A DNA stretch of 26,046 nt. Source: a virus. How positions within the stretch are numbered: the stretch's first letter is position 1; each line of letters starts with the position of its first letter. Positions 257 through 15,820 of this stretch are shown in pieces. The DNA is taken from IMG/VR virus record IMGVR_UViG_3300047557_001727, positions 1-26,046 of that record. One strand, 5' to 3'. A model generated the notes under the pieces. It was given only the letters and a program-made list of their open reading frames with translations. It was not told the origin of the DNA and ran no database searches. The translations under genes and the position numbers were made by a program.

Positions 257-1258
257 TTAAAATAATTCCATTTGTCCATAATCATTGCTCACCTCAGAAA
301 CATCAAGGCGCTGCGGAGTTTCCTGAGTTTCCGGTTTTTGCTCCGGCCCATCAAAAATCTGCATTTCAGTATGTCCGGCATAGCGGCCCTGATGGTTGGC
401 CTGCCCTGCAATTACCTCCACAATCATATCGCAGTTGTGAGCAAATTCCTGTGAGCCTCTAAATTGACCGCCTTTTGTAGCTTGTTGAACAGTAATAAAG
501 GCCGTTCCGGGGTTTTCAGCTTTCAATTCCTCCACTTGCTCAGGAGTAATTTTTATGAAGTTTACCGAATCAATAAACACAAATTTATACCCCCGGCCCC
601 TGAGTGCCTGCCTTATTTGCTCGTATTCTCTAAAATTAGCAAAATCAAGGTTTTGGTTACTCATGCCAAATTCCTTAATTTTCTTTTGCAGGGTTGCTGA
701 AAATCCCTCCTCAGATGCAATATAAAGGACCTTGCCATGTTCGCGGCTTAGGTAGTTTGCAAATTGAACACAAAAAATTGATTTACCTTGCTTTGGCCGC
801 CCAAAAACCATAAGATGAAATTTCTTGCCAGGGTTGCCCATAAGTTCGCCCCATTTTGAGCCTGAAAAATCATAGCAATCGTATGTATAATTTTCAAGCT
901 CCTTACTATTCATAATGCCTGCAATTTCTCCCTCAGATAAAACGCCCGATTCTGCAACAGATTTCAGCTCATTTTGCAGCTCTTGAATTTGTGCGGTTAA
1001 TACTTGCCTGTCAATTTCAGTAAGATCAGCATTTCTGCCAACAAAAAAACCTCCGGCGGCTCCTGCAAGCGCCCCTGTCAAACCTCCGAAATAAGTACCA
1101 ACAAGAGAACCTAAAACAGCCAAACGAATAGGCGGCGGATATTCCAATTTTGATTTAAGTATTGAAATTTGAGCCTGCAATGCCTCACAATAAGCGGCTG
1201 CCTCTGCGGCTTGCTGCGCTTCGGTGTCTATATCGTTAATGTCATTTAGATCCAGCAT
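257..1258 (-). CDS. RadA/RecA-fold ATPase with N-terminal membrane hairpin
   Basis: This is a P-loop ATPase of 333 residues. Walker A is GRPKQGKS at residues 153-160 and Walker B is FVFID at 226-230. QQATKGGQFRG (258-268), followed by a conserved run of E/F/H/D, mimics the RadA/KaiC-type HVTK.G.IAGP motif. EEGFSATLQKKIKEFG (183-198) resembles the RadA EES...RA segment. The N-terminus has an acidic coiled-coil stretch (~15-38) and a Gly/Ala-rich hydrophobic hairpin (~44-74), so the enzyme is probably membrane associated. It overlaps the spanin-candidate gene by 17 bases at the end of the structural and lysis operon. In a tailless membrane phage it could be the DNA-packaging or translocation motor, although it lacks FtsK/HerA features. 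A recombination or regulatory ATPase is the alternative. Confidence 0.75.
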   Translation of the reverse strand: MLDLNDINDIDTEAQQAAEAAAYCEALQAQISILKSKLEYPPPIRLAVLGSLVGTYFGGLTGALAGAAGGFFVGRNADLTEIDRQVLTAQIQELQNELKSVAESGVLSEGEIAGIMNSKELENYTYDCYDFSGSKWGELMGNPGKKFHLMVFGRPKQGKSIFCVQFANYLSREHGKVLYIASEEGFSATLQKKIKEFGMSNQNLDFANFREYEQIRQALRGRGYKFVFIDSVNFIKITPEQVEELKAENPGTAFITVQQATKGGQFRGSQEFAHNCDMIVEVIAGQANHQGRYAGHTEMQIFDGPEQKPETQETPQRLDVSEVSNDYGQMELF

Positions 1259-1661
1259 TGAAAAAACGGCTCAAGATTATTACAAATATACCTCCCAAAA
1301 CAAGAATCAAAATCATTTTATCCAGGATATTCAATTTTTGATAAAACGGCCTTTCGCGTCTCGTTTCCTTTGTGTGCGATGTTGGTCGGATTTCGGTTTT
1401 GCTGATGTAAGTGGTGCAAGGTCGTTCAATGTAATGGAGCCTGAGGGTGTCTCCGGTTCTGTAAATGGTGCTGTACTCTGTGCGAATGGTGTCCGAACTT
1501 TTTTGAAAAATAAAAGTCGTATCGCGTACCAAGCCACTTGCAATTTTAATCGTGTCTGTTTTGTGAATTTCCACAATGCGGCTAAGATTTCCGCAACCAG
1601 CAGAAATAAAAAGAAGTACAATAAGCAGTAAAATAGGATTTCTGATATTTTCATTTTTCAT
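1242..1661 (-). CDS. Unimolecular spanin candidate (lipoprotein plus C-terminal TM)
   Basis: This 139-residue protein has an N-terminal hydrophobic signal ending in a lipobox-like ISAG|CGN (Cys ~23), a Thr/Asp-rich extended middle with many short DT and RT motifs, and a C-terminal TM segment (MILILVLGGIFVIILSRFF, ~114-132). An outer-membrane lipid anchor plus an inner-membrane anchor on one chain is the topology of u-spanins (T1 gp11 type), which disrupt the outer membrane at the last step of lysis in Gram-negative hosts. The position next to two holin-like genes fits. The lipobox -3 residue is Ser, which is less usual. A second open frame of 107 codons starts 7 bases later and lies almost entirely inside this gene (see findings). 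Confidence 0.6.
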   Translation of the reverse strand: MKNENIRNPILLLIVLLFISAGCGNLSRIVEIHKTDTIKIASGLVRDTTFIFQKSSDTIRTEYSTIYRTGDTLRLHYIERPCTTYISKTEIRPTSHTKETRRERPFYQKLNILDKMILILVLGGIFVIILSRFFNAGSK

Positions 1662-1866
1662 TTTCTAATGTGAATAAATTGGTAAAAACTTTGCCGGCAA
1701 TGCCACAAACCAGGATCACAATGGTTTTTTTCGGGTGTTCAAAGTTATCTAAGGTAGCCAAAAAAGTTGAAACGCCTAAACAGGTATCTCCCACTTTTCT
1801 AAAAAAAATGGGCGTTGGTTTCCAATACTGAAAAACGCCAAATTTCAGTTTTTTTTCTTGCGCCAT
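1651..1866 (-). CDS. Holin-like small membrane protein
   Basis: This 71-residue protein carries the FGVFQYWKPTPIFFRKVGD motif near the N-terminus, then a hydrophobic stretch (CLGVSTFLATL) and a second one (TIVILVCGIAGKVFTNLF). Small proteins with a W+PTP..RK.GD start and one or two TM segments ending in GK..TNFF recur beside lysis genes in Bacteroidetes phages; I recognise the pattern from memory but the family name is uncertain. The gene overlaps the spanin candidate by 11 bases and the upstream membrane gene by 22 bases, so translation is probably coupled. A role in membrane permeabilisation is inferred from context. Confidence 0.55.
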   Translation of the reverse strand: MAQEKKLKFGVFQYWKPTPIFFRKVGDTCLGVSTFLATLDNFEHPKKTIVILVCGIAGKVFTNLFTLENEK

Positions 1867-2030
1867 TGAATAATATAGTTAGCGCAGCCCATGCCTGTAA
1901 GAACGATAGCTCCACTTGTTGCAATTATGTTCAAAACTGCCTGTGATTCCACAATCCAAGAAGTAAGAACCATTAACCAGGTGCCGCCTATGTATTGCTC
2001 CTCATTCAATTTTATTGCACTACCTGGCAT
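1845..2030 (-). CDS. Small membrane protein, possible second holin
   Basis: This protein has 61 residues with hydrophobic segments at ~17-27 (GGTWLMVLTSWIV) and ~32-52 (VLNIIATSGAIVLTGMGCANYI), then a basic tail (QWRKKKN). Short length, TM content and a positively charged C-terminus are holin-like. It overlaps the genes on both sides, which binds it into the lysis block with the spanin candidate. No specific family is recognised. It could equally be a virion membrane protein. Confidence 0.5.
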   Translation of the reverse strand: MPGSAIKLNEEQYIGGTWLMVLTSWIVESQAVLNIIATSGAIVLTGMGCANYIIQWRKKKN

Positions 2031-2317
2031 GATCCTGGGCCTGTTATTGCCTCAATAGCAGTAATGGCCTTATTGTGATAATCAAGGGCAAGCTGTGGCC
2101 CCCAAAATTCTGCGGCTGTTATCTCTGCGTTAAAGGCGGAAGGGAGTGAAGGTATATTTAAAGATTGCGCCCCGGCAATAAAAGCGGCCTCATCTTTGTA
2201 ATAAGAGAGAATGCAGTTTGAAAATCCGGGATTGTAACATTGTATAAGCAAATAGCAAAAAGGCTGGACCTCAAAGCCATCTGCAGTAGTTACAGGAGTA
2301 TTTATTTGTATTGCCAT
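2012..2317 (-). CDS. Unknown protein downstream of the spike gene
   Basis: This protein of 101 residues has no signal or TM segment. The first half is beta-like with aromatic and Cys residues (VQPFCYLLIQCYNPGFSNCIL). The second half is Ala/Ile-rich and probably helical (AEITAAEFWGPQLALDYHNKAITAIEAITG). It lies 4 bases downstream of the spike gene, so a fibre chaperone, adaptor or co-spike role is possible, but this is inference from position only. It overlaps the next membrane gene by 19 bases. Confidence 0.6.
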   Translation of the reverse strand: MAIQINTPVTTADGFEVQPFCYLLIQCYNPGFSNCILSYYKDEAAFIAGAQSLNIPSLPSAFNAEITAAEFWGPQLALDYHNKAITAIEAITGPGSCQVVQ

Positions 2318-2321
2318 ATTT

Positions 2322-3644
2322 TTAATATCTTGTTTCTACGATGCGAGCTTTTGCAACTACTCTTAGAGTAACAGTTCCGCCTCCGGCAAAGTTAGGCCCT
2401 AAAAAGTTCACTTGCAAAGCTGCGCCGGTTACAGTAAATGTAGTATCACAGGCAGTCATTGAGGCATCATGCAATTTATGAATGGAATAAGGCGTACCAA
2501 CGATTGAGCCAGTTCCTGCCAAATTTTTGTAAGCACAAAGAGAATTTTGAGAAAACATATCTCCAACAGTTACGCCGGTTGCAGTTCCTGAAATTGCGGT
2601 AACAATGGCCACAATATCAATGTTTACAGTCATAGCGCTATTAGTCGGGCCTGTAATTCTCAAAGAGGATCCATCTAAGTAAATTTCTTTTGTTTGAGCA
2701 TCTGTAAAGCCACTATTTAACCTTAAAATAGCTTCGCTGCCCTGCGCATCTCCTGTTATAGTGAATCTGCCATTTGCTATAGTTCTTTGCCCATATAAAT
2801 AAGCGTTAGCATAATACCCTCCCAAATTGCTTGCATAATCACCTGCAACCGTATTTAATCTACCTCCGCCATTTGTGGCATAAGCACCTGTAATAGTATT
2901 TGTATCTCCGCCTAAATTTGAACCATAATTACTTGTAATTGAAATTCCCGCGCCTCCTGCACTTGTCGAACCATTGCCGCTTACGGTATTAAAACCGCCT
3001 ACACAAAAAATAAAATCTCCGTTTGTTGTTGTATTTGCATATCCTCCAGGTATAGAACCATAAAGTGAATTGCAATTATTTAAAATCCCTCCACCAACAA
3101 CAGAAAAATCTTTTTGAGCTTGATTTTGCAAACCTGCGCCTATAAAACTTGTGTAAGCTGTATTTATGTTGTCCGATCCTCCACAAATTACGCTATCTGT
3201 TCCATTGTTTCTATTGTTTATACCTCCTGCGATAACTGTTCTTGTTCCACTTGCAACCTGATTGGCAGCGCTGCGATTCATCTGCAAATCAACAGCGTAA
3301 CTTCCTCTGGCATTGCCCCCTGTTGCAGCGCCATCTGCAATATCTGCCACAATAGCTCCTGTACCTTTTGGAATAATCGCGGCATTTATGTTAGTTCCTG
3401 CACCTAAAGCAGTAAAACTTGAAGTATTGCCTACAGGGTTTGAAGTATAAGCCTCAATCCAATTTGTTAGGCCGATCACAATGTTTCCGGCTCCAAAAAT
3501 TGAATTACCATTTATTGTTTTGAATTGTGTTTGATCTAAAGCAACATTGCGCCCACTAACGCCAACATTTGTAATAACTACCGGACTTGTTCCAGTTATG
3601 CTTGTTATGCCGCCTCCGGCTCCTGTTATGTCAATCGCTGCCAT
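2322..3644 (-). CDS. Trimeric spike/fibre, YadA-head-like repeats
   Basis: This 440-residue secreted-type beta protein has no signal peptide. The N-terminus contains the motif KTINGNSIFGAGNIVIG (~42-58), which is common in phage fibre shafts. Residues ~130-290 hold degenerate repeats of the form S.V.GG..N....G (SVVGGGILNN, GSIPGGYANT, SNLGGDTNTI, TNGGGRLNTV, SNLGGYYANA), the pattern of YadA/Hia-type left-handed trimeric heads. The last ~120 residues form a separate beta-rich domain ending in VAKARIVETRY, plausibly the receptor-binding tip. It most likely makes the host-recognition spike. It sits between the muramidase and the lysis genes. Similar proteins occur on tailed phages too, so it does not decide virion type. 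Confidence 0.75.
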   Translation of the reverse strand: MAAIDITGAGGGITSITGTSPVVITNVGVSGRNVALDQTQFKTINGNSIFGAGNIVIGLTNWIEAYTSNPVGNTSSFTALGAGTNINAAIIPKGTGAIVADIADGAATGGNARGSYAVDLQMNRSAANQVASGTRTVIAGGINNRNNGTDSVICGGSDNINTAYTSFIGAGLQNQAQKDFSVVGGGILNNCNSLYGSIPGGYANTTTNGDFIFCVGGFNTVSGNGSTSAGGAGISITSNYGSNLGGDTNTITGAYATNGGGRLNTVAGDYASNLGGYYANAYLYGQRTIANGRFTITGDAQGSEAILRLNSGFTDAQTKEIYLDGSSLRITGPTNSAMTVNIDIVAIVTAISGTATGVTVGDMFSQNSLCAYKNLAGTGSIVGTPYSIHKLHDASMTACDTTFTVTGAALQVNFLGPNFAGGGTVTLRVVAKARIVETRY

Positions 3645-3654
3645 GTTTACAAAT

Positions 3655-4380
3655 TTAAGCTATCGGGGTTACTTTTTTTAAGTGTTTTGCACCATTTCCA
3701 AAAACATCAAGGCTGCCATATTTCCAGGCCACATAAACAGCTCCCGAAACGAGCAAAAGCCCTAAAATTGTTGATTTGCCGGGATTCTCCTGAATTATAT
3801 TTACTGTCATATTGTAAAAATCTTTCATTCGATTCAGCCAGCCTGTCCTAAATTGAGGGTAAGTATTTTTGCCTAAGTTATCCAAAAAGTCATAACGGAG
3901 CTTGTAAATATCCTCAAAAACAGCTTTTTCGCCTCGTTTTTTTATTTCATCATTTAAGGCTTTGCGGCTTAAACCTCCAAAATCACCATCAACAACAAGA
4001 GCATGGCCCTTTGTGTTAAGATACCTTTGAACAAATTTGTTTGCTACGCCCGGACCTGATCCCCAAACCCAATCCACCAAAAGTTCTGCAATGGCTTGAG
4101 AGTTGATATTGTCGGCTCCCACCGAATCCCAAAAAGTAACTTTAAAAATTTTAGTCCATACATCATCAGGCATTTTGTAAAAAAGCTCCGGCGTTGCAGT
4201 ATATCCGGCCTTAGCTGCTGAGCCTGCAAAAGTCTGCCAGGTTACGCCTTTATTTGTGTGATAACCGGAGCCATCAGGAACCGGAAACCGCGCGGCATAA
4301 TCTCCGCGATCCTTACTTAGGCCGCCCTCCCATTGCTTAATATATGCAATGAATTTCTGAGCTTTATTTATATCTGCCAT
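3655..4380 (-). CDS. GH108-type muramidase with C-terminal TM anchor
   Basis: This peptidoglycan hydrolase of 241 residues has an N-terminal catalytic motif QWEGGLSKD...GYHTNKGVTWQTF, in which Glu18 is the expected acid, matching glycoside hydrolase family 108 (EGG....D.GG.T..GIT). The middle part (VVDGDFGGLSRKALN) matches the peptidoglycan-binding region usually fused to GH108. After ~200 residues a TM segment follows (STILGLLLVSGAVYVAWKY, ~203-221). Free endolysins lack such an anchor, so this copy may be a virion-membrane lysozyme for entry or an anchored lysin. Its start codon overlaps the stop of the upstream gene at position 4380. Confidence 0.85.
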   Translation of the reverse strand: MADINKAQKFIAYIKQWEGGLSKDRGDYAARFPVPDGSGYHTNKGVTWQTFAGSAAKAGYTATPELFYKMPDDVWTKIFKVTFWDSVGADNINSQAIAELLVDWVWGSGPGVANKFVQRYLNTKGHALVVDGDFGGLSRKALNDEIKKRGEKAVFEDIYKLRYDFLDNLGKNTYPQFRTGWLNRMKDFYNMTVNIIQENPGKSTILGLLLVSGAVYVAWKYGSLDVFGNGAKHLKKVTPIA

Positions 4381-4655
4381 TACTCTTGCATTATACGGAT
4401 AACATATAGCATATCCTCGCCAGCTCCGCCTAAAAATACAACATCGTACTGAGAAAAATCCTGATCTCCTACATTCTGTTTTATTGAGTAGGTAGTTCCG
4501 GCCTCAATCGGTACGCCATCGACTTTCACATTATTTGAAGCCGCAGAATTTAGGGGATTTGTAGTGGGCCTAAAAAAACTGATTGCATTGCAGCCCTCCG
4601 CCAATATCAGCGAGCTTTCTCCTACAAAGGTTGTTATCGTTCTTGTTTTTGCCAT
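4380..4655 (-). CDS. Small beta-rich structural-type protein, unknown
   Basis: This 91-residue protein has no TM segment. Alternating hydrophobic strands (TITTFVGESSLILAEG, AGTTYSIKQNVGDQ, YDVVFLGGAGEDMLYVIRIM) suggest a small beta-sandwich. It stands between a single-TM protein and the muramidase in the structural operon, so a minor virion component is likely. No family is recognised. Confidence 0.65.
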   Translation of the reverse strand: MAKTRTITTFVGESSLILAEGCNAISFFRPTTNPLNSAASNNVKVDGVPIEAGTTYSIKQNVGDQDFSQYDVVFLGGAGEDMLYVIRIMQE

Positions 4656-4656
4656 T

Positions 4657-4827
4657 TTATTTATTTTTCAGTAGAATGATTAAAGCCAAAGCAACCAAAA
4701 GCCACTTTATTTGAGTGAGTTCTGAGTGAGTTCCCTCCAGGTGTTTATTTGTTTCAGCACTGTTTTTGTCAATGCTTGTAACATCTAAATCTGTTTCTTT
4801 TAGTGGTTGTAAGGCTCCGAGCTGCAT
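4657..4827 (-). CDS. Single-TM minor protein
   Basis: The chosen start is the ATG at 4827, giving 56 residues. A longer frame from 4896 would overlap the upstream gene by 65 bases and its extra 23 residues look like a shadow of that gene. The start chosen lies 5 bases after the upstream stop, the spacing seen elsewhere in this operon. The product is a polar helix with SAETNKHLEGTHSELTQIK followed by a C-terminal TM segment (WLLVALALIILL). It is another member of the set of small single-TM proteins in this module. Confidence 0.6.
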   Translation of the reverse strand: MQLGALQPLKETDLDVTSIDKNSAETNKHLEGTHSELTQIKWLLVALALIILLKNK

Positions 4828-4831
4828 AGTT

Positions 4832-5521
4832 TTAAGAGGTGAAAATGTCCCAGGTTTGAGGGTTAATTGCCACAATTCTCCTATCAGTGCCTCCAAATTT
4901 GTAGGGCAGTTTAACTATCCAAAAATTAGGGTTTCCGCTTGAAACAATGTGGTAATTAGCAAAAGTAGTGCCCGGCAAAATTGTTAAGGTGTTTCCTGTT
5001 GATTTATATCGCCCTGCGCTTGCATCGTAAAACAAAGCTCCGGCCTCTCCGCCTGTTCTAATTGTGGCAGTTTTACCCTGATTTAATGAAGCCAAAATTT
5101 GTGCGGCCCTGGTACCTGTTTGAGCTGTTTCTCTGCGAGTGCCAAGCGACAAATAAGCATCAATGTTCGAGGGGCTTACATTGCCAAGCCTTGCATAAGT
5201 CAAAGGGAACCATGAGGCAACAGTTTTGTTTGTTTGCGAATTTGCAGTATATCCGGGATCACCATCAACGCCAATTCCTAAGCGCGTTTGCAGGCTCATT
5301 ACTTTTTGTTGATAAGGTGTTGGCCCCTGGTAAGTAGTGCCTCCGCCGGTAGTTCCTCCGCCGGTAGTTCCGCTTGCTTTTTTCTCAGCTTCTGCCTTTG
5401 CCTTTGCTGCAGCCTCAGCCTCAAGCCTTTTTTTGTCTCTTGCTTTTTTTATTGCTCTGTAGCCGAAATATCCGGCAACGCCTACAATAGCAGCTCCGAT
5501 AATTATATTTTTCTGTTTCAT
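4832..5521 (-). CDS. N-terminal-TM protein with peptidoglycan-binding-like segment
   Basis: The product has 229 residues. A TM segment (~5-22, IIIGAAIVGVAGYFGYRAI) precedes a Lys/Ala/Glu-rich helix (~26-50) and a TTGGG-repeat linker (~51-64). The C-terminal part begins YQQKVMSLQTRLGIGVDGDPG, which resembles the LQ..LG...DG..G core of PG_binding_1, then a beta-rich end (ILPGTTFANYHIVSSG...FWIVKLPY). The architecture suggests a virion-membrane-anchored rod reaching the cell wall. The gene is tightly packed between two other TM-protein genes. The domain match is weak and by eye. Confidence 0.6.
   Translation of the reverse strand: MKQKNIIIGAAIVGVAGYFGYRAIKKARDKKRLEAEAAAKAKAEAEKKASGTTGGGTTGGGTTYQGPTPYQQKVMSLQTRLGIGVDGDPGYTANSQTNKTVASWFPLTYARLGNVSPSNIDAYLSLGTRRETAQTGTRAAQILASLNQGKTATIRTGGEAGALFYDASAGRYKSTGNTLTILPGTTFANYHIVSSGNPNFWIVKLPYKFGGTDRRIVAINPQTWDIFTS
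5334..5367. repeat. Short tandem repeat coding the TTGGG linker
   Basis: Two adjacent copies of the 15-mer cctccgccggtagtt with a partial third copy encode the TTGGGTTGGGTT linker of the TM/PG-binding-like protein on the minus strand. A similar Gly-rich stretch occurs at 9380-9475. These flexible spacers are typical of proteins that hold a domain away from a membrane. Confidence 0.7.
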
Positions 5522-6063
5522 TAGAATCTGTATTTTATTCCTTTAGAGGCCAAAATTTTGTTTATCTGATCAATCTCATCTGTATCCATGCCAACAGCAA
5601 GCCATTCAGGCAGCGCTACATTGTTAAGCAGTCCGATTATTGCAGTAGGCTCCCGGCGCTTGCCAAAGGCCTTAATAAGTTCAAGCACATCAAGGTCATT
5701 TTTCATTGCTTTAAATACCTCATAAATAGGCTCCTCGTTCAATCGGTCAAACGGATTGTAATTTGTGGACCAGCCTGTAAAAATTTTATCTGCATAGCCC
5801 TGATAACTACTCAAAGGGTAAGAGAGTTTTTGCGTTTTAGCAGCCTCCGCCTCATCTTGTTTAATCCGGTCCTCTCTTTGTTGCTCAGGAGATTTTTTAA
5901 GGCTGCGAATTAACGCATAACCTCCAACGCCAATAATGATGGCCCATGTCAAAGGCTTAGCAAAAATACTCTCCTTAAAAGTAGAGGGGTTGGCCGCAGT
6001 TGATTGCACTTTGTCGCTTTTTAGTGTTTTATAGGCCAAGGCTGTGCTTAATACATTACTCAT
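5521..6063 (-). CDS. Single-TM virion-type protein, unknown
   Basis: This 180-residue protein has a TM segment at ~36-53 (LTWAIIIGVGGYALIRSL), followed by a strongly charged helix (KKSPEQQREDRIKQDEAEAAK) and a soluble C-terminal domain of ~110 residues ending IDQINKILASKGIKYRF. The layout of TM followed by charged helix parallels the next gene downstream, as if a family of membrane-anchored spacers. No enzyme motif is visible. Stop and start of the neighbouring genes touch at 5521. A minor membrane component of the virion is inferred. Confidence 0.65.
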   Translation of the reverse strand: MSNVLSTALAYKTLKSDKVQSTAANPSTFKESIFAKPLTWAIIIGVGGYALIRSLKKSPEQQREDRIKQDEAEAAKTQKLSYPLSSYQGYADKIFTGWSTNYNPFDRLNEEPIYEVFKAMKNDLDVLELIKAFGKRREPTAIIGLLNNVALPEWLAVGMDTDEIDQINKILASKGIKYRF

Positions 6064-6064
6064 T

Positions 6065-6847
6065 TTAGCTCATTGTTTTTAGGATATTAACAGCCTGCCT
6101 GTAAACTTGTGGGTTTGTCTCTGCCATTTTTGCCAATCTCTCTAAGTTTTCGGCAAGGTTTGAGTCAAGCGCCATGAGCTTATTAACAGCGTCAATAATG
6201 CGTTTTTTCTGAATTTCCGGCGTAGTGTTCATATTGTTTTCTATTTCAGTTTCAGTTTCAGTTTCAGCAAATCCGGCCAAAGGTTTGCCGCCTGCAAAGC
6301 CTTTTAATAGGTCCGGAGCAATCGTTGAGGCAATACCCATGATTCTCTCCTCCCACCTGTTTTCTTTTTCGGCCATTTTGCGGTTATGCTCCGCCTCCAT
6401 TTCTCTAATTCGGGCCTCATATTCATTGCGAATGCGGTCCTTTTCAAGTTCTAAGCGCAAACCGGTTATTTCGTCTTTACCGCCCAAAAAGCGGTCAATC
6501 CAGCCATTTGTTTGCTCAAGCGCCCCAAGGCCACCGGCTCCGCTATAACCTGGAACCGGAGGCAGGGGTTCTTTTTCTTTGAGTGAGGGTATATGGTGAA
6601 TATCGCAATGCAAGTATTTGCCTAAAACAGGTTGGCCGTTTTTGCTCTGATCTTTAAAGGCGTACAATTTCACAGTATAAACGCCTGAATCAGCATTTTC
6701 AAAAAACTCGTTCAAAGCCTCCTCAGCATCTTTAAGGGTTACATTGCGGTTTTGCCTTGCAACCATATTCATATCCTTGTCATAAATGACAAAGCAGTTT
6801 AATGCCTCGTTGTGGAGCTGTTTAATGCAATACTCTTTTTTTACCAT
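6065..6847 (-). CDS. Coiled-coil structural-type protein
   Basis: The product has 260 residues. The N-terminal ~95 residues form a compact alpha/beta domain (CFVIYDKDMNMVARQNRNVTLKDAEEALNEFF) with a beta hairpin. A Pro/Gly linker follows at ~98-115. Residues ~128-172 are a charged coiled coil (RLELEKDRIRNEYEARIREM and following). A TETETEIENN stretch encoded by a hexanucleotide repeat precedes a helical C-terminus (LMALDSNLAENLERLAKM). It is packed directly against the beta-protein gene at 6847. Scaffold, vertex or DNA-contact roles are all possible; no family is recognised. Confidence 0.6.
   Translation of the reverse strand: MVKKEYCIKQLHNEALNCFVIYDKDMNMVARQNRNVTLKDAEEALNEFFENADSGVYTVKLYAFKDQSKNGQPVLGKYLHCDIHHIPSLKEKEPLPPVPGYSGAGGLGALEQTNGWIDRFLGGKDEITGLRLELEKDRIRNEYEARIREMEAEHNRKMAEKENRWEERIMGIASTIAPDLLKGFAGGKPLAGFAETETETEIENNMNTTPEIQKKRIIDAVNKLMALDSNLAENLERLAKMAETNPQVYRQAVNILKTMS
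6244..6267. repeat. Hexanucleotide tandem repeat (tttcag x4)
   Basis: Four perfect copies of tttcag are followed by a degenerate flank. On the minus strand they encode alternating Glu-Thr. Changes in copy number would keep the frame and only alter linker length. Confidence 0.9.
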
Positions 6848-7344
6848 TACTCTATTGAATTTTTGTCAATGTAGCAGACACGCAAAGTTAATGCGTTTGA
6901 GGTTGTTAAAATAGTGGCATCGGAGAACATAACATAGCAATTTTGCCAAACCTGATCTTGAACATTAAAAAAGGTAGGTTTACCTCCGTTCAATCTGCGA
7001 ATCAGGCTGTTAAGCGGAACCATTGCAATCTCATCTCTATTGTTATTTGATAAGACAAGCCAGCCGCCTGCAAGTTGCGTATTATTCAAATTGTCTTTGG
7101 CCGGATAAGTATTGGCAAGGTTTTGCGTTACCTGATCAACAACCTCAATCTCTGTAATGATTGCGTTTTCGCCATCTAAACTTGTATCAGAGTAAAAATA
7201 TAGCGCCTCATTGTTTTGAGTGCCTGCAGGCCATTGCAGAGTAACTGCCTTAGCCTTAGCGCCCTCAATACCGGCAAAGGGCTTGATTAACCCTTTAGCA
7301 TCAAAAAACGCTATTAATGGGGAAACTACGCCCTGAACCTCCAT
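6847..7344 (-). CDS. Beta-rich capsid-type protein (jelly-roll candidate 2)
   Basis: This 165-residue protein is nearly all beta by pattern (AVTLQWPAG, ALYFYSD, AIITEIEVVDQV, GWLVLSNNNRDEIAMVP, CYVMFSD, LTLRVCYID). Its C-terminal third aligns by eye with the gene just upstream: both have an R.LNGG motif, an aromatic/hydrophobic strand, a YV/YI strand plus T..SN pattern, and a final V.Y.D strand. The two are probably paralogous single-jelly-roll proteins. It follows that gene by 4 bases. A minor capsid, penton or second capsid protein is inferred. Confidence 0.6.
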   Translation of the reverse strand: MEVQGVVSPLIAFFDAKGLIKPFAGIEGAKAKAVTLQWPAGTQNNEALYFYSDTSLDGENAIITEIEVVDQVTQNLANTYPAKDNLNNTQLAGGWLVLSNNNRDEIAMVPLNSLIRRLNGGKPTFFNVQDQVWQNCYVMFSDATILTTSNALTLRVCYIDKNSIE

Positions 7345-7348
7345 TTTA

Positions 7349-7768
7349 TTAAGAAATTAAATCGTAATACATATTTACCGCAACAACCTCGTTTGAATTT
7401 ACGCCGGTTGTGTCGGTTAATTGAATGTAGCTGTCAGTCAAATTGATAATACGAGGCTTCATAAGGATAATAAAACCACCATTCAAGCTACGCACTGCAG
7501 TATAGGCGGGCATCTGATACACAAACTCTTGCTTTTTATTGTCTCTCCAAGTACATACAACCTGATCAATAGCAGAGGCCGCAATAACTGTCTCATTTTG
7601 AGGCGTCTTTGCAAGCTGAGTCGCTGAAAATACCTCAAAGCCATAGAGAATGATATTGTTTCGGCTCAGGTTTGGGACCTCGGTATAGTAATACTTGTTT
7701 CCGGTTGTGGGAGTGCCTGTAATTTTTGCGCGTACAAGCTGGCTGCGCTTAATAATCAAATTGTTCAT
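7349..7768 (-). CDS. Beta-rich capsid-type protein (jelly-roll candidate 1)
   Basis: This 139-residue protein has strands KYYYTEVPNL, NIILYGFEVFSA, VVCTWRDNKKQEFVYQMP, GGFIILMKP, SYIQLTD and VVAVNMYYD, with VRSLNGG near residue 92. It shares the LNGG motif and C-terminal strand order with the next gene, suggesting duplication. It is the first gene after the terminator that follows the capsid gene and has its own -7 element 19 bases before the ATG. Size and all-beta character fit a vertex or single-jelly-roll protein. This is inference, not a sequence-family match. Confidence 0.6.
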   Translation of the reverse strand: MNNLIIKRSQLVRAKITGTPTTGNKYYYTEVPNLSRNNIILYGFEVFSATQLAKTPQNETVIAASAIDQVVCTWRDNKKQEFVYQMPAYTAVRSLNGGFIILMKPRIINLTDSYIQLTDTTGVNSNEVVAVNMYYDLIS

Positions 7769-7787
7769 GTTTAAAGTAGTTAATACG

Positions 7788-7795
7788 CAAATATA
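7788..7795 (-). promoter_or_regulatory. Bacteroidetes-type -7 element restarting transcription
   Basis: Read on the minus strand this is TATATTTG, a perfect TAnnTTTG, placed 19 bases upstream of the ATG at 7768 and directly after the T-run of the terminator. No TTG is found at the -33 position because the hairpin occupies it. Promoter activity is therefore plausible but not certain. Confidence 0.5.
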
Positions 7796-7797
7796 AT

Positions 7798-7825
7798 AAA
7801 AAAGCCCCGGTTTTTACGCCGGGGC
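7798..7825 (-). terminator. Intrinsic terminator after the capsid gene
   Basis: On the minus strand GCCCCGG pairs with CCGGGGC around an 8-base loop, followed directly by six T residues. It is located 33 bases after the stop codon of the likely major capsid gene. It would end most transcripts there, allowing a higher level of capsid mRNA than of the minor genes downstream. Confidence 0.9.
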
Positions 7826-7857
7826 CATGAAAAACAAAAATCCCTATTCTACACCGA

Positions 7858-8508
7858 TTAGGATTTAGCGTTTGTTACCAGGTATCCGCGTACTTCGAAC
7901 ACAGCGAAAACGCTGAATCCATCTCCATCAATAGCAGAGGCGTTACCCAGGCTTACATTTATATCCAATGTTTGGCGCCCATCTACACATACAGGATCTG
8001 AAGGATAAAAACCATACAAGCCATTTGAATACTCGTTAGTCAATTTCTGAGCTGAAGCACTGAACCAGGCATTTGCTGCGGTCTGAGTTCCGGGAACACG
8101 CAAGAATGCGCGAGTAGGGAACGCAGGCAAAAACTCTCTGCGGTCAATAGTGAAATTCAGATCAGCGTTGAAAATACCGGCAGCATTAGCGGCGTTACCT
8201 GCAAAAACATTGGTGTCTGCATAGGTGTAAACCTGTGCGTTTAAATGCTGTAATGCGGTAGGGGTGTCGCTTGCAATGTACTTCAAACCTACTGTAAAAT
8301 GTGTTACCACGAATTGGTCGTTCAAATTTAGTAGATTTTCTGTTACAATTGGAGACGCTACGCGGTTAGCCTGGAGCTGAAAGGCATAGCTTGAAAGGTT
8401 AGTGAGCTGCGTTTCTGCACGCAGATAAGACTGAGAGAGAGAGGAGTAGTCCAGGCCTAATCTTTCCTGGATAAATTTTTTCTCGTTTACGATTGAAAAG
8501 GTACTCAT
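7858..8508 (-). CDS. Likely major capsid protein
   Basis: This 216-residue protein has no TM segment or enzyme motif. The N-terminus is helical (ERLGLDYSSLSQSYLRAETQL), followed by alternating strands (FVVTHFTVGLKYIA, LNAQVYTYADTNVF, FNADLNFTIDRREFLPAF, QTLDINVSLGNAS, GFSVFAVFEVRGYLV). The case for capsid is threefold: beta-rich fold, central place among small membrane proteins, and a dedicated strong terminator just after the gene that isolates it from the minor genes. HK97-type capsids are usually larger and follow portal and protease genes, which are absent here. A single- or small jelly-roll capsid is the preferred inference; no homologue is named from sequence. Confidence 0.6.
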   Translation of the reverse strand: MSTFSIVNEKKFIQERLGLDYSSLSQSYLRAETQLTNLSSYAFQLQANRVASPIVTENLLNLNDQFVVTHFTVGLKYIASDTPTALQHLNAQVYTYADTNVFAGNAANAAGIFNADLNFTIDRREFLPAFPTRAFLRVPGTQTAANAWFSASAQKLTNEYSNGLYGFYPSDPVCVDGRQTLDINVSLGNASAIDGDGFSVFAVFEVRGYLVTNAKS

Positions 8509-8542
8509 TTTATTTATGAATTATTAATGGTGTTTTGATTGA

Positions 8543-8941
8543 TTAAAAGTCCATTTCACCGGCTTCGGCAGCGCTTGTGTCAAAGCTGCTTGAGCTGTAA
8601 GAATCTACGGCGCCCATAAGAACGCTGTTGCTTGTTTCCATGGGAATTTCGCCCAAAAGAACATCAGTAGCGCCCAGGCCGGCTTTAGCAACCAAAGGCT
8701 TAACCAGGTTGTAGCCGCCCACAAGGCTCATGCCGAGGCCAAAGGATTTCAGCATAGAACCTTTTGCAAAGGCTCCGATTGCAATGCCTGCGATAACTGT
8801 CGCTGCATCTTGATACATTTCGTTGTCCTTAATAAAGGGAACTTTGCTCAGGACAAACTTTTTAGCTACAAGAGTAGTAGCGCCGCCGGCAACGCCAGCG
8901 CCTACGGTCTTGAGAGTTTCTGTTGAAAAGATATTTTTCAT
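8543..8941 (-). CDS. Gly/Ala-rich membrane protein, unknown
   Basis: The product has 132 residues. Hydrophobic Gly/Ala segments occur at ~10-28 (VGAGVAGGATTLVAKKF), ~46-60 (AATVIAGIAIGAFAKG) and ~65-84 (SFGLGMSLVGGYNLVKPL), giving two to three membrane helices, then a Ser/Asp/Glu-rich tail (SYSSSSFDTSAAEAGEMDF). It lies just upstream of the capsid gene in the same direction with a 34-base gap. Such proteins are expected in the internal membrane of tailless phages; this is inferred. Confidence 0.65.
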   Translation of the reverse strand: MKNIFSTETLKTVGAGVAGGATTLVAKKFVLSKVPFIKDNEMYQDAATVIAGIAIGAFAKGSMLKSFGLGMSLVGGYNLVKPLVAKAGLGATDVLLGEIPMETSNSVLMGAVDSYSSSSFDTSAAEAGEMDF

Positions 8942-8960
8942 ATTGTTGGTAAGTTGTTAA

Positions 8961-9284
8961 TTATTTTTTACGGAATAAGAGAAAATAAGCTAAAAGTAAG
9001 CCTCCGCCTATTAATAGCATATTCATTTTTTTGGGTTGTTCGGTTAATTCTTTTGATCCCTCAGCTCTCAGCGCTTCAGGTTTTACAAAAATATCCTCCC
9101 TGGGAGCTTCTAACGATCCGCCGCCAAATGGTGGAGGATTTGTTAAAACAGGACCTAAATTTACAGGCATTGTTTCTCCGCCGCCCTCAAAAACTATATC
9201 CGTTACAACGCCGCCGCCGGTAGTTGCCGAGGTCATCGGTCCTACAGGTGCGGTGTCTGTGATTGCTCCGAGTAGTGTGTTCAT
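8961..9284 (-). CDS. C-terminally anchored membrane protein
   Basis: This protein of 107 residues is Gly/Pro/Thr-rich for the first ~85, apparently extended (TGGGVVTDIVFEGGG, NPPPFGGGS), and ends in a TM segment plus basic tail (MLLIGGGLLLAYFLLFRKK, 89-107). The same tail style (hydrophobic helix then KKK) ends the next gene upstream, so both are probably inserted in the same membrane with the N-terminus outward. No catalytic residues are visible. Confidence 0.65.
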   Translation of the reverse strand: MNTLLGAITDTAPVGPMTSATTGGGVVTDIVFEGGGETMPVNLGPVLTNPPPFGGGSLEAPREDIFVKPEALRAEGSKELTEQPKKMNMLLIGGGLLLAYFLLFRKK

Positions 9285-9300
9285 ATTACAAAGATATTAC

Positions 9301-10602
9301 TTATTTTTTCTTTTTAGTGAAATACCACAATGCAGCCAAGGCAGCAACGCCTCCGACAATATACAGAGTGGTTTTGCTTTTTGGTGTTTCAGCTCCGCCT
9401 GGAGTTCCGCCCTGAGTTCCGCCTGGAGTTCCGCCGCCGCCTGGAGTTTCACCGCCGCCGCCGGTTGTTTCATCTGCGGAGGGAGCTACTTTTGCAATGA
9501 TTGCGGTTGTTATTGCAGCGCCAATAGCTACCGCCATGTTTTGCAAAATTGGGATCCAAATGCTTGAACTTGCTGCGGCTGTTGCTGTTGTTGTTGCAGG
9601 TTCACCTGAAATCCCGCCTGTTGATGCGTTGTATCTTTTGCCAAACAAAGCTGAAACAAGCGCCGCTATCCATTGATCGGGCCTTAAATTTTCTCCTTTT
9701 GCTTTCTTCGCCATCAATTCGGCAAATTTTTTGCCTTTAGGACTTTTTGACTGCCCTTTATTCATTGCGTCATAAAGCTCATTTGGGTTTCCACCATTTT
9801 CAAGCCAATTCAATTCTATTGACCTAAATTTATTCCATTGATCTTGATTTCCGGCCGCAGCTCCATTGCTTAAAGTTTTAAGCGCTGTTGCAAAACCTCC
9901 GGCGTTGCCGGCAATAGCAGTCAATATGATGCCTCTTGCTGCAATTCCTATAGGAAATACTTTTGCAGCCGCAATTTTTACCTTTTGAAATGCGTTGTAA
10001 TTATCCCAAACGCGATTCCGTTTGGCCCATTCAACAGCGCCCTCAGTGGCTCCTATTCCGCAGTAACCTCCACTTTTGCCGGTTCCGGCTATCATGGGAC
10101 CGGTTATCCCGGCCAAATAACTTACTTTCATTTTATATCTGTGATTTGCTTTTTTTTCTGAATCAAATTTACCCCAAACAACATCAATAATGCAACCCGA
10201 ATCCGTTACGCAATAAATATGGCCCGGAATGGCGCTATCTGTATAAGACGCCAAAACAAAGTGCCAGGGGATTCCTAAATTCTGCAAAATAGCCGCAGTA
10301 AAAAGGCTCATGCTCTTGCAGTCCGCAATGGCGCCCTTTCGCATAATTGCCGATGGCATTTGTACTACTTGCTGCCAATCGTCTGCCTTATACTTTACAT
10401 TCTTTTTAAGGTAGTCAAAAATTCGTTTACAGGTTTCTCTCTCGTTTGTAGCCTTAAAATACTGTGCAAGATCCTTTGTCTGTTCAACAGCAGCCGGAAC
10501 AGCGTCTCTGATTGCTTTTCTCAAGTCGCTATTGTCTGCGTCTGTGAGTAAATCCGTTTTTACCCCTGAGAACTTTGGTATGACTGCCTTTGGGATTCTC
10601 AT
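9301..10602 (-). CDS. Transglutaminase-like protein with C-terminal TM anchor
   Basis: The product has 433 residues. The N-terminal ~150 residues carry a transglutaminase-like papain fold: GAIADCKSMSLFTAAILQNLG (Cys95), a strand, PGHIYCV (His128) and IIDVVWGKF (Asp140) give the Cys-His-Asp triad in order and spacing. A hydrophobic region follows at ~214-240 (GIAARGIILTAIAGNAGG). The C-terminal half has a hydrophobic Ala/Ile stretch (~355-375), a GGGG/GGTP linker (~380-410) and a final TM plus KKKK tail. The family includes proteases and amidases. An entry or maturation protease tethered to the virion membrane is inferred. The stop overlaps nothing downstream; the start overlaps the LEA-like gene by 4 bases. 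Confidence 0.75.
   Translation of the reverse strand: MRIPKAVIPKFSGVKTDLLTDADNSDLRKAIRDAVPAAVEQTKDLAQYFKATNERETCKRIFDYLKKNVKYKADDWQQVVQMPSAIMRKGAIADCKSMSLFTAAILQNLGIPWHFVLASYTDSAIPGHIYCVTDSGCIIDVVWGKFDSEKKANHRYKMKVSYLAGITGPMIAGTGKSGGYCGIGATEGAVEWAKRNRVWDNYNAFQKVKIAAAKVFPIGIAARGIILTAIAGNAGGFATALKTLSNGAAAGNQDQWNKFRSIELNWLENGGNPNELYDAMNKGQSKSPKGKKFAELMAKKAKGENLRPDQWIAALVSALFGKRYNASTGGISGEPATTTATAAASSSIWIPILQNMAVAIGAAITTAIIAKVAPSADETTGGGGETPGGGGTPGGTQGGTPGGAETPKSKTTLYIVGGVAALAALWYFTKKKK
9380..9475. repeat. Gly/Pro-rich degenerate repeat in coding sequence
   Basis: Repeated ggagttccgcc-like units on the plus strand encode the GGGGTPGG/TQGGTPGG linker of the transglutaminase-like protein. Because the units are degenerate multiples of 3, length changes would keep the frame. 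Confidence 0.7.
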
Positions 10603-11075
10603 TTGAATAAGGCGCCCTGAATGTCCTTAATATAAGTTTGGGTGTTGATCTCAAAACTTTCAGGATAACTGAAAAGAGGCATTAAGGTTGTCATGTCCAC
10701 CTTAAATATAGGCCACTTTTTATCTGTGATTGATTTTACAAGCGCCGAAACTATTTGTAAATTGTTCAAGGCAAAGACAATGGTCATTTTTGTAACGCCT
10801 GGCTTAATTTCCGCCGGACCTGATCTAAAAGAACTGATTGCGTACTGATTCCAATTCAGATTGCCTTTTATACCCCTGATTTTAATTGTAGTATCGGTAG
10901 GATTCATAATATCCAGGTCAATGTGAGCTGAATAACTGAGTTTATCTCGCTTTAATCTCAAAGCAACAGGCGTGTAACTGAGCTTTCCGCTTGCCTTCCA
11001 TAACTGATAAAGCCGGTAAGCGCCTGCAAGTGCAACGATTCCCAAAACAGCCTTTGCCTGAGTTGATAACTTCAT
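10599..11075 (-). CDS. Membrane-anchored LEA14-like (WHy-type) protein
   Basis: This 158-residue protein has an N-terminal TM segment (~7-24, AKAVLGIVALAGAYRLYQLW). The remainder reads as a small beta sandwich of the LEA type 2 kind: LSYSAHIDLDIMNPTDTTIKIRGIKG is the typical first half, in which a strand is followed by N-P and a second strand. It is the first gene of the leftward structural operon. The ATG stands only 5 bases after a perfect -7 element. Its role could be a membrane-proximal virion protein. The fold call is by pattern and moderate. Confidence 0.65.
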   Translation of the reverse strand: MKLSTQAKAVLGIVALAGAYRLYQLWKASGKLSYTPVALRLKRDKLSYSAHIDLDIMNPTDTTIKIRGIKGNLNWNQYAISSFRSGPAEIKPGVTKMTIVFALNNLQIVSALVKSITDKKWPIFKVDMTTLMPLFSYPESFEINTQTYIKDIQGALFK

Positions 11076-11080
11076 AAACG

Positions 11081-11088
11081 CAAAAATA
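11081..11088 (-). promoter_or_regulatory. -7 element of the leftward structural operon
   Basis: On the minus strand TATTTTTG matches TAnnTTTG. It ends 5 bases before the ATG at 11075, so the mRNA would be leaderless or nearly so. A TTG lies upstream but at 13 bases, which is too close, so the -33 part is poor. Confidence 0.5.
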
Positions 11089-11108
11089 CAAGGATAAAAA
11101 GCAAAAAT

Positions 11109-11138
11109 TTGTTTTTTCGCCTATTTTGGGTACTTTTG
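11109..11138 (+). promoter_or_regulatory. Bacteroidetes-type promoter of the rightward small operon
   Basis: TTG at 11109-11111 and TACTTTTG at 11131-11138 are separated by 19 bases, both consensus. It shows that the first gene starts at the ATG at 11168 and not at the upstream TTG at 11126, which lies inside the promoter. It diverges from the structural operon promoter. Confidence 0.8.
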
Positions 11139-11167
11139 CGATACTTTATATCACTTTTTATATCAGT

Positions 11168-11347
11168 ATGCTCGGTAAAAATAAAACTTCTTTTTTGTTA
11201 TACTTAGATCGCAGAGTGGATAACATTTTGAGAAAAGAGGCAATGAGAAAAGGCCTGAGCAAAACTGCCTATTTGCGTTTGATATTGAACGAGCATATAA
11301 TAAAAGAGGGCCACAATATCAATGACTTACTTAACCAAGTACCATGA
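11168..11347 (+). CDS. Putative ribbon-helix-helix regulator
   Basis: This protein of 59 residues from the promoter-supported ATG begins with a strand (NKTSFLLYLDRRVDNIL), followed by two helices (LRKEAMRKGLSKTAYLRLILNEHI), the size and order of CopG/Arc-type ribbon-helix-helix proteins. It is the first gene of a three-gene operon divergent from the structural operon, a good place for a repressor or activator of late genes. Its stop overlaps the next start as ATGA. The DNA-binding role is inferred. Confidence 0.65.
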   Translation: MLGKNKTSFLLYLDRRVDNILRKEAMRKGLSKTAYLRLILNEHIIKEGHNINDLLNQVP

Positions 11348-11631
11348 ACAACAGAAAACTGATAAAAATTCAAAACGAGGAATTTGTACTCTCTGATCTT
11401 AAAGGCAATCCATTTATTTGCCCTTTTCAAAACTCTCATTTAATTCAGGGGCAACTTGCCGGCCAAATTATTAACCACAAACCGCAATGCAGCTCCGCCT
11501 GTGCGCTTTTTGTTATGGAGTCTTTGCCGAATAACAAAATAAGGGTTACAAAAAATTGCGCCCCGCAGCATGATGTTGAGGTATTGCCTGTTGAGGATAA
11601 TTCATCAAGTTCCCCTATATTGCAATCGTGA
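11344..11631 (+). CDS. Small Cys/His-containing protein, unknown
   Basis: This 95-residue protein contains cysteines in C-P-F-Q, HKPQCSSACALF and KNCAPQHD contexts, which could bind zinc or iron-sulfur, although the spacing matches no finger I know. The N-terminus is beta-like (LIKIQNEEFVLSDLKGNPF). It is translationally coupled to both neighbours (ATGA at the start, GTGA at the end). Function is unknown; a small regulatory or adaptor protein fits the operon. Confidence 0.6.
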   Translation: MNNRKLIKIQNEEFVLSDLKGNPFICPFQNSHLIQGQLAGQIINHKPQCSSACALFVMESLPNNKIRVTKNCAPQHDVEVLPVEDNSSSSPILQS

Positions 11632-11918
11632 AATTTTACCGCATACCCGCCGCAGTAAGGCAAAATGCCATTAAAGGGCTATTGCTACGCAAAAAGTACC
11701 GCAGAGGCGGAACGGCTGTGGGTATAGGTATGGCTCGCTTAATCTCTCGCGGCGGCTCAGTTCCCTTTGCCATTGTTAAAAAAATTTCTCAGTATTTCCC
11801 CAGGCATCAATTTGATAATTTGCATATCAAAAATTCAAATGGTTGGATTGCCTGGCAGTTATGGGGAGGCTCTGCAGGTTGGAGCTGGTCTAAGAAGATC
11901 GTCTCTTCAAACGGATAA
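11628..11918 (+). CDS. Stand-alone copy of an XkdF-N-terminal-like phage domain
   Basis: The product has 96 residues from a GTG start that overlaps the upstream stop. The order IPAAVRQNAIKGL..RKKYRRGGTAVGIGMARLISRGG...VKKISQYFPRH...GWIAWQLWGGSAGWSWSKKIV matches a domain I know from phage proteins, usually N-terminal to XkdF-like proteases or beside portal genes, where it appears as ARAR.L....V..M..FF.RH...GRIAWLLWGGD. Here it stands alone and in the Bacteroidetes backbone. Biochemical function of the domain is not known to me. The 3' end overlaps the convergent hydrolase gene by 29 bases. Confidence 0.65.
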   Translation: MKFYRIPAAVRQNAIKGLLLRKKYRRGGTAVGIGMARLISRGGSVPFAIVKKISQYFPRHQFDNLHIKNSNGWIAWQLWGGSAGWSWSKKIVSSNG

Positions 11919-12573
11919 AAGCCAAGGCCCCTAAAGCAAAAACGCCGCCGACTCTGATTGCGTTTCCTATCGCTGTTCTTGCTGCCTGTCTCTGATCAAA
12001 AAGAGTATAAGTAAACTTGTTTCCATATTTCTGTGATGCGCTTTCAGCAAATTTCAGCATTGAGTTAAAATCATCAACAGATTGAAAAACCTGGCAGCCT
12101 GCTGAGTGATCGGCAATGAGTTCTGTTTTACCTAATCTTTGCGCCCTGTGAATGTTTATGCCAAAATAACCGGTTTGCTTTGTTGCCGGATCAAAATCAG
12201 TTATTGCGTCTCGGTTGTAATCTCTGTAAATTGTAACCGGTCCGCCTGTTTGTACTAAAGCCCTATAAGTGTAGTGAGTGCCTAATTGATAAGCTCCTTT
12301 GTATTGCCCCTCTGCTAATAATGCGGCTGCTTTTTGCCCCGGCCAAATGTTTTTCAGCCAATAAGTGCCTGTGTCGGTGGTTCCGGGAGCCTGCCAAATT
12401 TCCCATTGGCCGGAGCCATTTTTAAAAATGTAGCCGAGTGTATCATCAAATTTGCCGCTTTGCTTGTTTGGGGATCTAACGCCAAAGAGATTCATTGAAA
12501 ACGGCCTTTCATCAAGCTCAAAGCCTTGCCGCCTGTAAGCGTTTACAATTTGTTGAGCTGTGAAGCGCTGCAT
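11890..12573 (-). CDS. L,D-transpeptidase-like or cell-wall hydrolase, C-terminal TM
   Basis: This 227-residue protein carries the core YFGINIHRAQRLGKTELIAD followed by HSAGCQVF, which resembles the H...(x14-17)...S.GC motif of YkuD-type catalytic domains and of small phage wall enzymes; candidate residues are His142, Ser157 and Cys160. A hydrophobic segment near the end (VGGVFALGALAFIRL, ~207-221) and basic RRSS tail give a C-terminal membrane anchor, the same layout as the muramidase and transglutaminase-like proteins. An envelope-processing enzyme carried in the virion membrane or used at lysis is inferred. It starts 6 bases after the basic-protein gene. Confidence 0.6.
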   Translation of the reverse strand: MQRFTAQQIVNAYRRQGFELDERPFSMNLFGVRSPNKQSGKFDDTLGYIFKNGSGQWEIWQAPGTTDTGTYWLKNIWPGQKAAALLAEGQYKGAYQLGTHYTYRALVQTGGPVTIYRDYNRDAITDFDPATKQTGYFGINIHRAQRLGKTELIADHSAGCQVFQSVDDFNSMLKFAESASQKYGNKFTYTLFDQRQAARTAIGNAIRVGGVFALGALAFIRLKRRSS

Positions 12574-12578
12574 GGTGA

Positions 12579-12809
12579 TTAATCGCAGCGTTTAAGGTTT
12601 CTGCCGGCGGCGCTTGACGGCCTTTTAGATAAAGAACGGCCATAAGTTGAACATTTTGCCGCTGAGGGCTTGCCGCCTGCCCTTGTTTTAAACTTAGATA
12701 GCGGAGCTGCCTTTTGCTTTTTGTATGCTGCCTCAGAGGCAAATTTTTTGGTTGCTGTGTTGAAATAGTAAACACTACCAGAGGCCGATTTTCTTTTAAC
12801 TATTGACAT
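12579..12809 (-). CDS. Small basic protein, possible DNA-condensing virion component
   Basis: The product has 76 residues with many Lys and Arg and few acidic residues (SIVKRKSASGSVYYFNTATKKF, KKQKAAPLSKFKTRAGGKPSAAK, RSLSKRPSSAAGRNLKRCD). Two cysteines are present. A second open frame overlapping it (12518-12775) is a shadow. High charge suggests binding to nucleic acid, such as genome condensation in the capsid, but this is inference. It is the first gene of the left block after the cassette-like region. Confidence 0.55.
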   Translation of the reverse strand: MSIVKRKSASGSVYYFNTATKKFASEAAYKKQKAAPLSKFKTRAGGKPSAAKCSTYGRSLSKRPSSAAGRNLKRCD

Positions 12810-15245: not shown

Positions 15246-15260
15246 AGTGTTTCGATGTGG

Positions 15261-15505: not shown

Positions 15506-15514
15506 GCCGTAATT

Positions 15515-15781: not shown

Positions 15782-15820
15782 ATCAACTTTTTATTTTAAA
15801 TTAAACATTTGTGCTTCTAA

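Follow-up and report, generated by a model that had tools for sequence, protein, structure and literature searches.

The stretch analysed here, IMG/VR virus record IMGVR_UViG_3300047557_001727 (hereafter the window; 26,046 nucleotides, the whole record), is very probably a genome fragment of a tailless icosahedral DNA virus of Bacteroidota, probably of Chitinophagales, that belongs to an extended group around Salisaeta icosahedral phage 1 (SSIP-1). The virus almost certainly lacks a tail, and its DNA is probably wrapped in a membrane inside a protein shell. The structural module of the window is homologous to and collinear with small circular genomes, modules within Bacteroidota genomes and, in part, SSIP-1, and the window itself is a larger and divergent member joined to its own replication genes. 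We consider it likely that tailless viruses of one order-level group, with a single jelly roll and probably a membrane, occur widely among mesophilic Bacteroidota. Its members would comprise complete circular genomes (10.6-13.5 kb), proviruses in chromosomes and SSIP-1 at 44 kb, and the window would be a distinct branch in which the common virion module is linked to a replication module of its own.

This large group has apparently not been described before. A literature search, made mostly without subscription papers so that a prior description is possible, turned up no account of these small circular genomes or of relatives of SSIP-1 within genomes of Bacteroidota. The collinear Bacteroidota modules and 32 virus contigs, including 12 complete circles, would make the orphan SSIP-1 one end of a broad group. 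From these relatives a small set of core genes for virions of this kind can be defined, and the proviruses in chromosomes of sequenced species offer material for induction and imaging.

The structural module and its link to SSIP-1

The minus strand of the window carries a replication module (20.4-12.9 kb) followed by the structural module (12.8-0.3 kb), and plus-strand genes between 20.4 and 26 kb encode HNH, ParB-like, Mom-like, methyltransferase and glycosyltransferase proteins. The open reading frames (ORFs) were found at the coordinates described, nearly all on the minus strand; those of the structural and replication modules given below lie on this strand unless stated otherwise. An earlier note, made from the sequence alone, had described a membrane-rich structural module at 1242-12809, and a hydrophobicity scan (Kyte-Doolittle, 19-residue mean, cut-off 1.6) bore this out, with 11 of 24 ORFs reaching the cut-off versus 1 of 20 in the replication module at 12.9-20.4 kb. 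The enrichment was significant using a more conservative count of 9 (Fisher p = 0.013). Of the 11 ORFs, one (1331-1654) is nested within another (1242-1661) in a different frame, and a 440-amino-acid (aa) beta-rich protein is probably a false positive within the count; the LEA-like protein, the muramidase and a 180-aa protein fell just under 1.6.

A 433-aa transglutaminase-like protein with a C-terminal transmembrane (TM) segment (9301-10602; Pfam transglutaminase core 1e-6) had a sole match in 50,697 phage records, its counterpart SSIP-1 gp34 (phmmer 1e-9), and the homologue from the circular genome L105 likewise matched only gp34 in these records. Asp94, Cys95 and His128 are invariant among the window, SSIP-1 and L019, a locus from a Bacteroidales metagenome-assembled genome (MAG). 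The 333-aa ATPase (257-1258), in which an N-terminal glycine-zipper membrane-like stretch (Gly-zipper 3e-3) precedes a KaiC/RadA-type P-loop domain (Pfam KaiC 4e-6), matched SSIP-1 gp40 (E 4e-6 among all phages; phmmer 1e-10) and the ATPase of L019 (7e-32). Directly upstream of the capsid candidate, a 132-aa Gly/Ala-rich membrane protein (8543-8941) is a homologue of SSIP-1 gp44, which occupies the equivalent position by the capsid gene (hhalign profile-profile comparison, 1.8e-5); a provirus family was matched both by its profile (1.2e-3) and by the single sequence (4.2e-4). SSIP-1 gp34, gp40, gp43 and gp44 are all recorded as structural or virion proteins.

Reviews characterise SSIP-1 as an icosahedral phage that contains a membrane, has PRD1-type architecture and builds its shell from two types of capsid protein (PMC6356626). 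It was isolated from a salt-loving bacterium and is unclassified in the NCBI taxonomy. Besides the three homologous proteins above, the window and SSIP-1 share the layout of the coiled-coil gp33 and the lipoprotein gp50, a GH108-like endolysin (gp31) and the lack of a terminase or portal match; the window's capsid candidate has an indirect link to gp45/gp46. SSIP-1, at 43.8 kb, differs in encoding an integrase, a methylase-type virion protein of 2,319 aa and a pair of 210-aa paralogues, whereas the window has its ATPase at the far end of the module, very divergent capsid proteins and different replication genes. The earlier note had supposed a stand-alone new lineage; the window instead belongs with SSIP-1, in a group larger than that note envisaged.

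Giant methylase/helicase-type proteins (1,500-2,300 aa) were also observed near the ATPase in L019 (12743-17851), L053 (225-5414), L059 (3716-8224) and SSIP-1 (gp43), and in L059 the ATPase is fused to this protein. It was not seen in the window and is absent from the small circles. Its role is possibly that of an injected anti-restriction protein.

Relatives in Bacteroidota genomes and small circular genomes

L019, retrieved for its methylase, is a collinear provirus-like region with the order LEA-like, transglutaminase, Gly/Ala membrane protein, capsid-position protein, small beta proteins, coiled coil, TM proteins, lysozyme, lipoprotein, giant methylase/helicase and ATPase. A transglutaminase profile searched against 395 genomes from the phylum returned strong matches, and the module was present in 12 of the 13 regions retrieved. 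Three of these 12 (L062-L064) match SSIP-1 gene by gene (gp34, gp35, gp40, gp43, gp44, gp45/46, gp47 and gp54). Within Chitinophagales, strong transglutaminase matches were observed in about 20 of 299 genomes; a capsid-family gene adjoins the transglutaminase gene in 13 of 20 regions retrieved, and nine of these 13 genes are direct homologues of the window's 216-aa capsid candidate (w216; best 6e-18). No strong match was observed in 250 genomes of Sphingobacteriales. Chromosomal integration is likely because some modules lie inside contigs of several megabases (5.08 Mb for L053, 3.3 Mb for L084). One locus considered as a second provirus (L032) was rejected as host RadA, and L065 and transglutaminase matches of 640-700 aa, which look like host enzymes, were left out of the provirus count. 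With a two-row transglutaminase alignment as query, SSIP-1 was the sole match from IMG/VR, and GTDB gave none.

Searching IMG/VR with w216 plus its L102 homologue identified 32 virus-contig loci. Scans of this database with the capsid candidate, ATPase or transglutaminase as single proteins gave no relatives, because these are too divergent for exact 8-residue patterns, and a scan combining w216, L089 and L087 returned nothing. Twelve of the 32 contigs, 10.6-13.5 kb in length, have identical ends of 55-127 bases, and joining the ends restores split genes at the length seen in relatives (ATPase of 319 aa in L106, transglutaminase of 380 aa in L114, lysozyme of 166 aa in L133). Given the identical ends and the genes intact across the join, these 12 are complete genomes, either circles or circularly permuted.

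Their common gene order is ATPase, LEA, transglutaminase, in places a 92-aa protein, a basic protein of 150-330 aa, Gly/Ala protein, capsid candidate, 140-aa beta protein, coiled coil, 81-135-aa beta protein, fibre and lysozyme, with exceptions limited to single missing calls, such as the LEA gene before the transglutaminase gene in L113 and L114. Single queries from the circular genomes recover the LEA, transglutaminase, capsid candidate, 165-aa, 91-aa and 96-aa proteins of the window, while window queries recover the coiled-coil and Gly/Ala proteins of the circles. The shared genes are collinear except for the 96-aa gene, which in the window lies on the opposite strand outside the transglutaminase gene. 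The capsid protein of one circular genome had no match in the 50,697 phage records and that of another had no PHROG, which illustrates how standard phage annotation overlooks this group. In L105, L121 and other circles the sole recognised replication-type enzyme was an AAA_25/DnaB-like ATPase, and no polymerase was found.

The capsid candidate and the alternatives

The capsid candidate w216 (7858-8508) has homologues in the 32 virus contigs and nine Chitinophagales loci. Its family aligned to the provirus capsid family with 93% probability (hhalign 3.3e-7, 178 columns), which in turn aligned to the SSIP-1 gp45/46 family (2.7e-4). The earlier note had called the candidate isolated, and this was not upheld: the neighbouring 165-aa (6847-7344) and 139-aa (7349-7768) beta proteins, a second and third capsid-type protein, are paralogues of each other (hhalign 3.3e-10) and are conserved along with w216. 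The 165-aa protein has homologues in L105 (4e-5) and L091 (1.8e-5), and the 139-aa protein in L089 and L090, where they adjoin the capsid candidate.

Structure prediction and a fold search, proposed in the earlier note, were run for w216 alone among these three proteins. AlphaFold with a 28-row alignment gave an eight-stranded single jelly roll (predicted local distance difference test score, pLDDT, 61; predicted template modelling score, pTM, 0.65) with strands at residues 23-34, 40-45, 65-78, 116-121, 124-131, 168-176, 181-186 and 198-212, while the single sequence gave an unusable model (pLDDT 33). The best solved match was the capsid protein of Sulfolobus polyhedral virus 1 (Foldseek E 2e-3 and 1e-2; VIA, Z 7.7, root-mean-square deviation 4.0, 148 residues), and the remaining matches listed were mostly viral jelly rolls, including PRD1 P3 and PBCV-1; proteins of P23-77 and SH1 were absent among them. 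In BFVD, I1ZBH9 (211 aa) and I1ZBI0 (256 aa) matched the model with probability 0.99; from their consecutive accessions and equal lengths we infer that these entries, unnamed in the table, are SSIP-1 gp46 and gp47. The fold match, the conserved gene position and the profile chain together make it likely that w216 is a single jelly-roll capsid protein, with Z alone being no proof of kinship. A double jelly roll of the tectivirus or corticovirus type, the comparison drawn in the earlier note, was rejected, as w216 is one eight-stranded domain of 216 aa; the gene sets of the circular genomes held no larger capsid candidate.

Among known vertical single jelly-roll viruses, Sphaerolipoviridae, Simuloviridae and the Thermus phages P23-77 and IN93 are tailless, with single jelly-roll capsid proteins and an internal membrane (PMC4958249, PMC12642351), and no sequence link was found. 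Sphaerolipoviridae and relatives have two vertical single jelly-roll capsid proteins, compared with w216, the only one modelled, and the paralogous 139-aa and 165-aa proteins in the window. Their packaging ATPase carries a P9/A32 motif, whereas the window ATPase is of the KaiC/RadA type and had no FtsK/HerA-type match in the Pfam scan, which did not extend to the A32 motif itself. Sulfolobus polyhedral virus 1 (Portogloboviridae), the best structural match of the w216 model (pLDDT as above), has a circular double-stranded DNA genome of about 20 kb and an inner lipid layer (PMC8459092) but differs in its archaeal host, and no other shared gene was found. The Flavobacterium phages FLiP and PhiCjT23 resemble the proposed virus as lipid-containing, tailless viruses of Bacteroidota, FLiP also having a small circular genome. 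FLiP has single-stranded DNA and a double jelly-roll capsid protein (PMC6356626), PhiCjT23 is a lipid-containing single-stranded DNA phage (PMC9719478), and no sequence match was found.

In agreement with the earlier note, no portal, large terminase, tape measure, sheath or HK97 capsid was matched in PHROG and Pfam scans among the window proteins scanned, and six-frame searches of the whole record with Terminase_6N and Phage_portal were negative. The features that define Caudoviricetes (large terminase, portal, HK97-type capsid and tail proteins) were thus not found in the window, though it is incomplete. Since the record is linear without an end repeat it is a fragment, and gene absence within it is therefore weak proof by itself, so complete relatives were needed as a test. 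Neither Terminase_6N nor Phage_portal matched in the 12 circular relatives or in the complete genome of SSIP-1, and PHROG scans of the larger proteins of the circular genomes gave no portal, terminase or HK97 capsid; their long fibre-like proteins partly match profiles of tail fibres and virion proteins. The earlier suggestion of a tailless, probably membrane-containing phage of Bacteroidetes is thereby well supported, both by these complete relatives and by a transglutaminase-like hallmark that SSIP-1, itself membrane-containing and icosahedral, alone shares among annotated phages.

Several points weigh against this assignment. The window is incomplete at both ends, and near its right end it encodes a DUF5681 protein (24567-24953). 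Tailed Bacteroides phages and one huge phage give the ATPase higher scores than SSIP-1 does, and its counterpart in the circular genomes is only a distant relative (E 8e-4). A direct comparison of w216 with SSIP-1 gp45/46 was not significant (hhalign E 0.15), the w216 model is of middling confidence, and a Z below 8 may reflect a common fold only.

In one alternative the virus, also tailless and built on a jelly roll, would have no lipid membrane inside its shell, and the one-TM proteins, many of them small, would act only in the host membrane during lysis or entry. We consider this unlikely: SSIP-1 has an internal membrane (PMC6356626), the Gly/Ala protein by the capsid gene is conserved to gp44, a recorded virion protein, and numerous TM-tailed proteins occupy structural positions across the window, proviruses and circles. 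Satellites or capsid-carrying plasmids that need a helper virus would fit small circles with one AAA_25/DnaB-like ATPase and no polymerase or other recognisable replication genes, but are very unlikely given that the circles carry their own capsid candidate, lysozyme and fibre-like proteins and that the window and SSIP-1 combine an equivalent structural set with larger replication and regulation modules. DUF5681 proteins in tailed phages often lie near terminase genes, including the small terminase. An ordinary tailed phage, with portal, terminase and tail genes outside the recovered 26 kb and the 216-aa protein serving in the tail or as decoration, would accommodate the fragmentary record, the DUF5681 protein and the ATPase relatives in tailed Bacteroides phages, yet its probability is slighter still, as the 12 complete circles (10.6-13.5 kb) hold the module without terminase or portal and the complete SSIP-1 also lacks both.

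Proposed virion, remaining genes and host

For the SSIP-1-related virus we propose, w216, probably with the 139-aa and 165-aa proteins that are paralogues of each other, would form upright single jelly-roll capsomers around an internal membrane. The 132-aa Gly/Ala-rich protein and the further proteins with one TM segment would sit in this membrane. Genome packaging may be driven or assisted by the KaiC/RadA-type ATPase; this is the weakest step, the role being unproven because closer matches occur in tailed phages and the circles have only a distant ATPase. The transglutaminase-like protein, with its conserved Cys and His, and a coiled-coil protein may serve assembly, cross-linking or penetration. 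The latter, of 260 aa with a beta domain (6065-6847), matched proteins in circular genomes (phmmer to 1.5e-6) and a provirus family (hhalign 6e-6) and shares the layout of SSIP-1 gp33.

The 440-aa beta-rich repeat protein (2322-3644), a fibre or spike candidate encoded where the circular relatives have their fibre genes, would be the receptor-binding spike; it had no family match in Pfam and PHROG scans. Two TM-anchored enzymes may open the cell wall for entry or exit: a GH108 muramidase with a hydrophobic C-terminal segment (3655-4380; Pfam 4e-11, provirus homologues to 3e-17), an enzyme type that occurs in several relatives too, and a 227-aa wall-hydrolase-like protein with a C-terminal TM segment (11890-12573; phrog_3000 4e-32, provirus loci L053-L055 1e-48 to 1e-60). 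Like the transglutaminase-like protein, the muramidase had been named in the earlier note and was recovered by Pfam, as was the Rad52/Erf protein described below.

Other genes of the module also have counterparts in relatives. A 158-aa LEA-14-like protein with an N-terminal hydrophobic segment, upstream of the transglutaminase gene (10599-11075), matched L019 at the equivalent position (1.8e-5), L100 (1.6e-7) and L105 (1.6e-4). The plus-strand gene at 11628-11918 encodes a 96-aa homologue (phmmer 2e-7) of the 92-aa protein found by the transglutaminase gene in circular genomes. A 91-aa beta protein (4380-4655; phmmer 9e-6 from L105) is homologous to an 87-aa protein that precedes the fibre gene of the circular relatives. 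A 180-aa protein with one hydrophobic segment (5521-6063) is kept in proviruses (hhalign 5.6e-6 over 110 columns; phmmer 1.9e-6, L084), and a 229-aa protein with an N-terminal TM segment (4832-5521) aligned to family ANb over the TM end (hhalign 1.4e-4) and has the layout of provirus TM+SH3/PG-binding proteins. The TM scan identified C-terminal segments in a 79-aa (4657-4896) and a 107-aa (8961-9284) protein. A 139-aa lipoprotein-like protein with an N-terminal signal and a C-terminal TM segment (1242-1661; sequence and TM scan) resembles SSIP-1 gp50 and L019 12171-12746 in layout only. This ORF and the nested TM-bearing ORF at 1331-1654 recall embedded spanin pairs.

Replication would combine the virus's own Erf/Rad52, DnaC-type loader and primosomal proteins with host polymerases. 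The replication module encodes an Erf/Rad52-type annealing protein (14784-15263; phrog_1097 1e-41, Pfam Rad52/Erf 6e-19), a DnaC-type helicase loader (18648-19241; phrog_50 3e-19), a primosomal protein and a C5 DNA methyltransferase (17794-18651; phrog_363 1e-70) present also in L019, L107 and L131.

A stretch of 358 bp within this module (15495-15852) is shared at 97% identity with L090 (G471:C69), a module-bearing contig of Chitinophagales MAG G471, while the surrounding DNA is divergent, which points to such viruses having exchanged DNA recently. L102, a locus from the same MAG, is placed among the circular genomes in the transglutaminase tree. The window falls inside the Chitinophagales-plus-circular group of this tree (support 100/98), and its nearest relative is unsure because its branch is long. 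The shared stretch, the occurrence of L102 in the same MAG and the tree placement make a Chitinophagales host likely.

By eye, a 165-aa protein (17135-17632) contains a DnaA-domain-IV-like stretch and a 91-aa protein (16845-17120) resembles a single-strand-binding-like protein that spans the join of L115. A doubtful tRNA-Gly call (24438-24509) on the other strand overlaps the end of the ORF of a Mom-like DNA modification protein (23704-24483; phrog_1384, 4e-46), which lies beside a ParB-like protein (23120-23725). A possible role of this pair is DNA modification against restriction.

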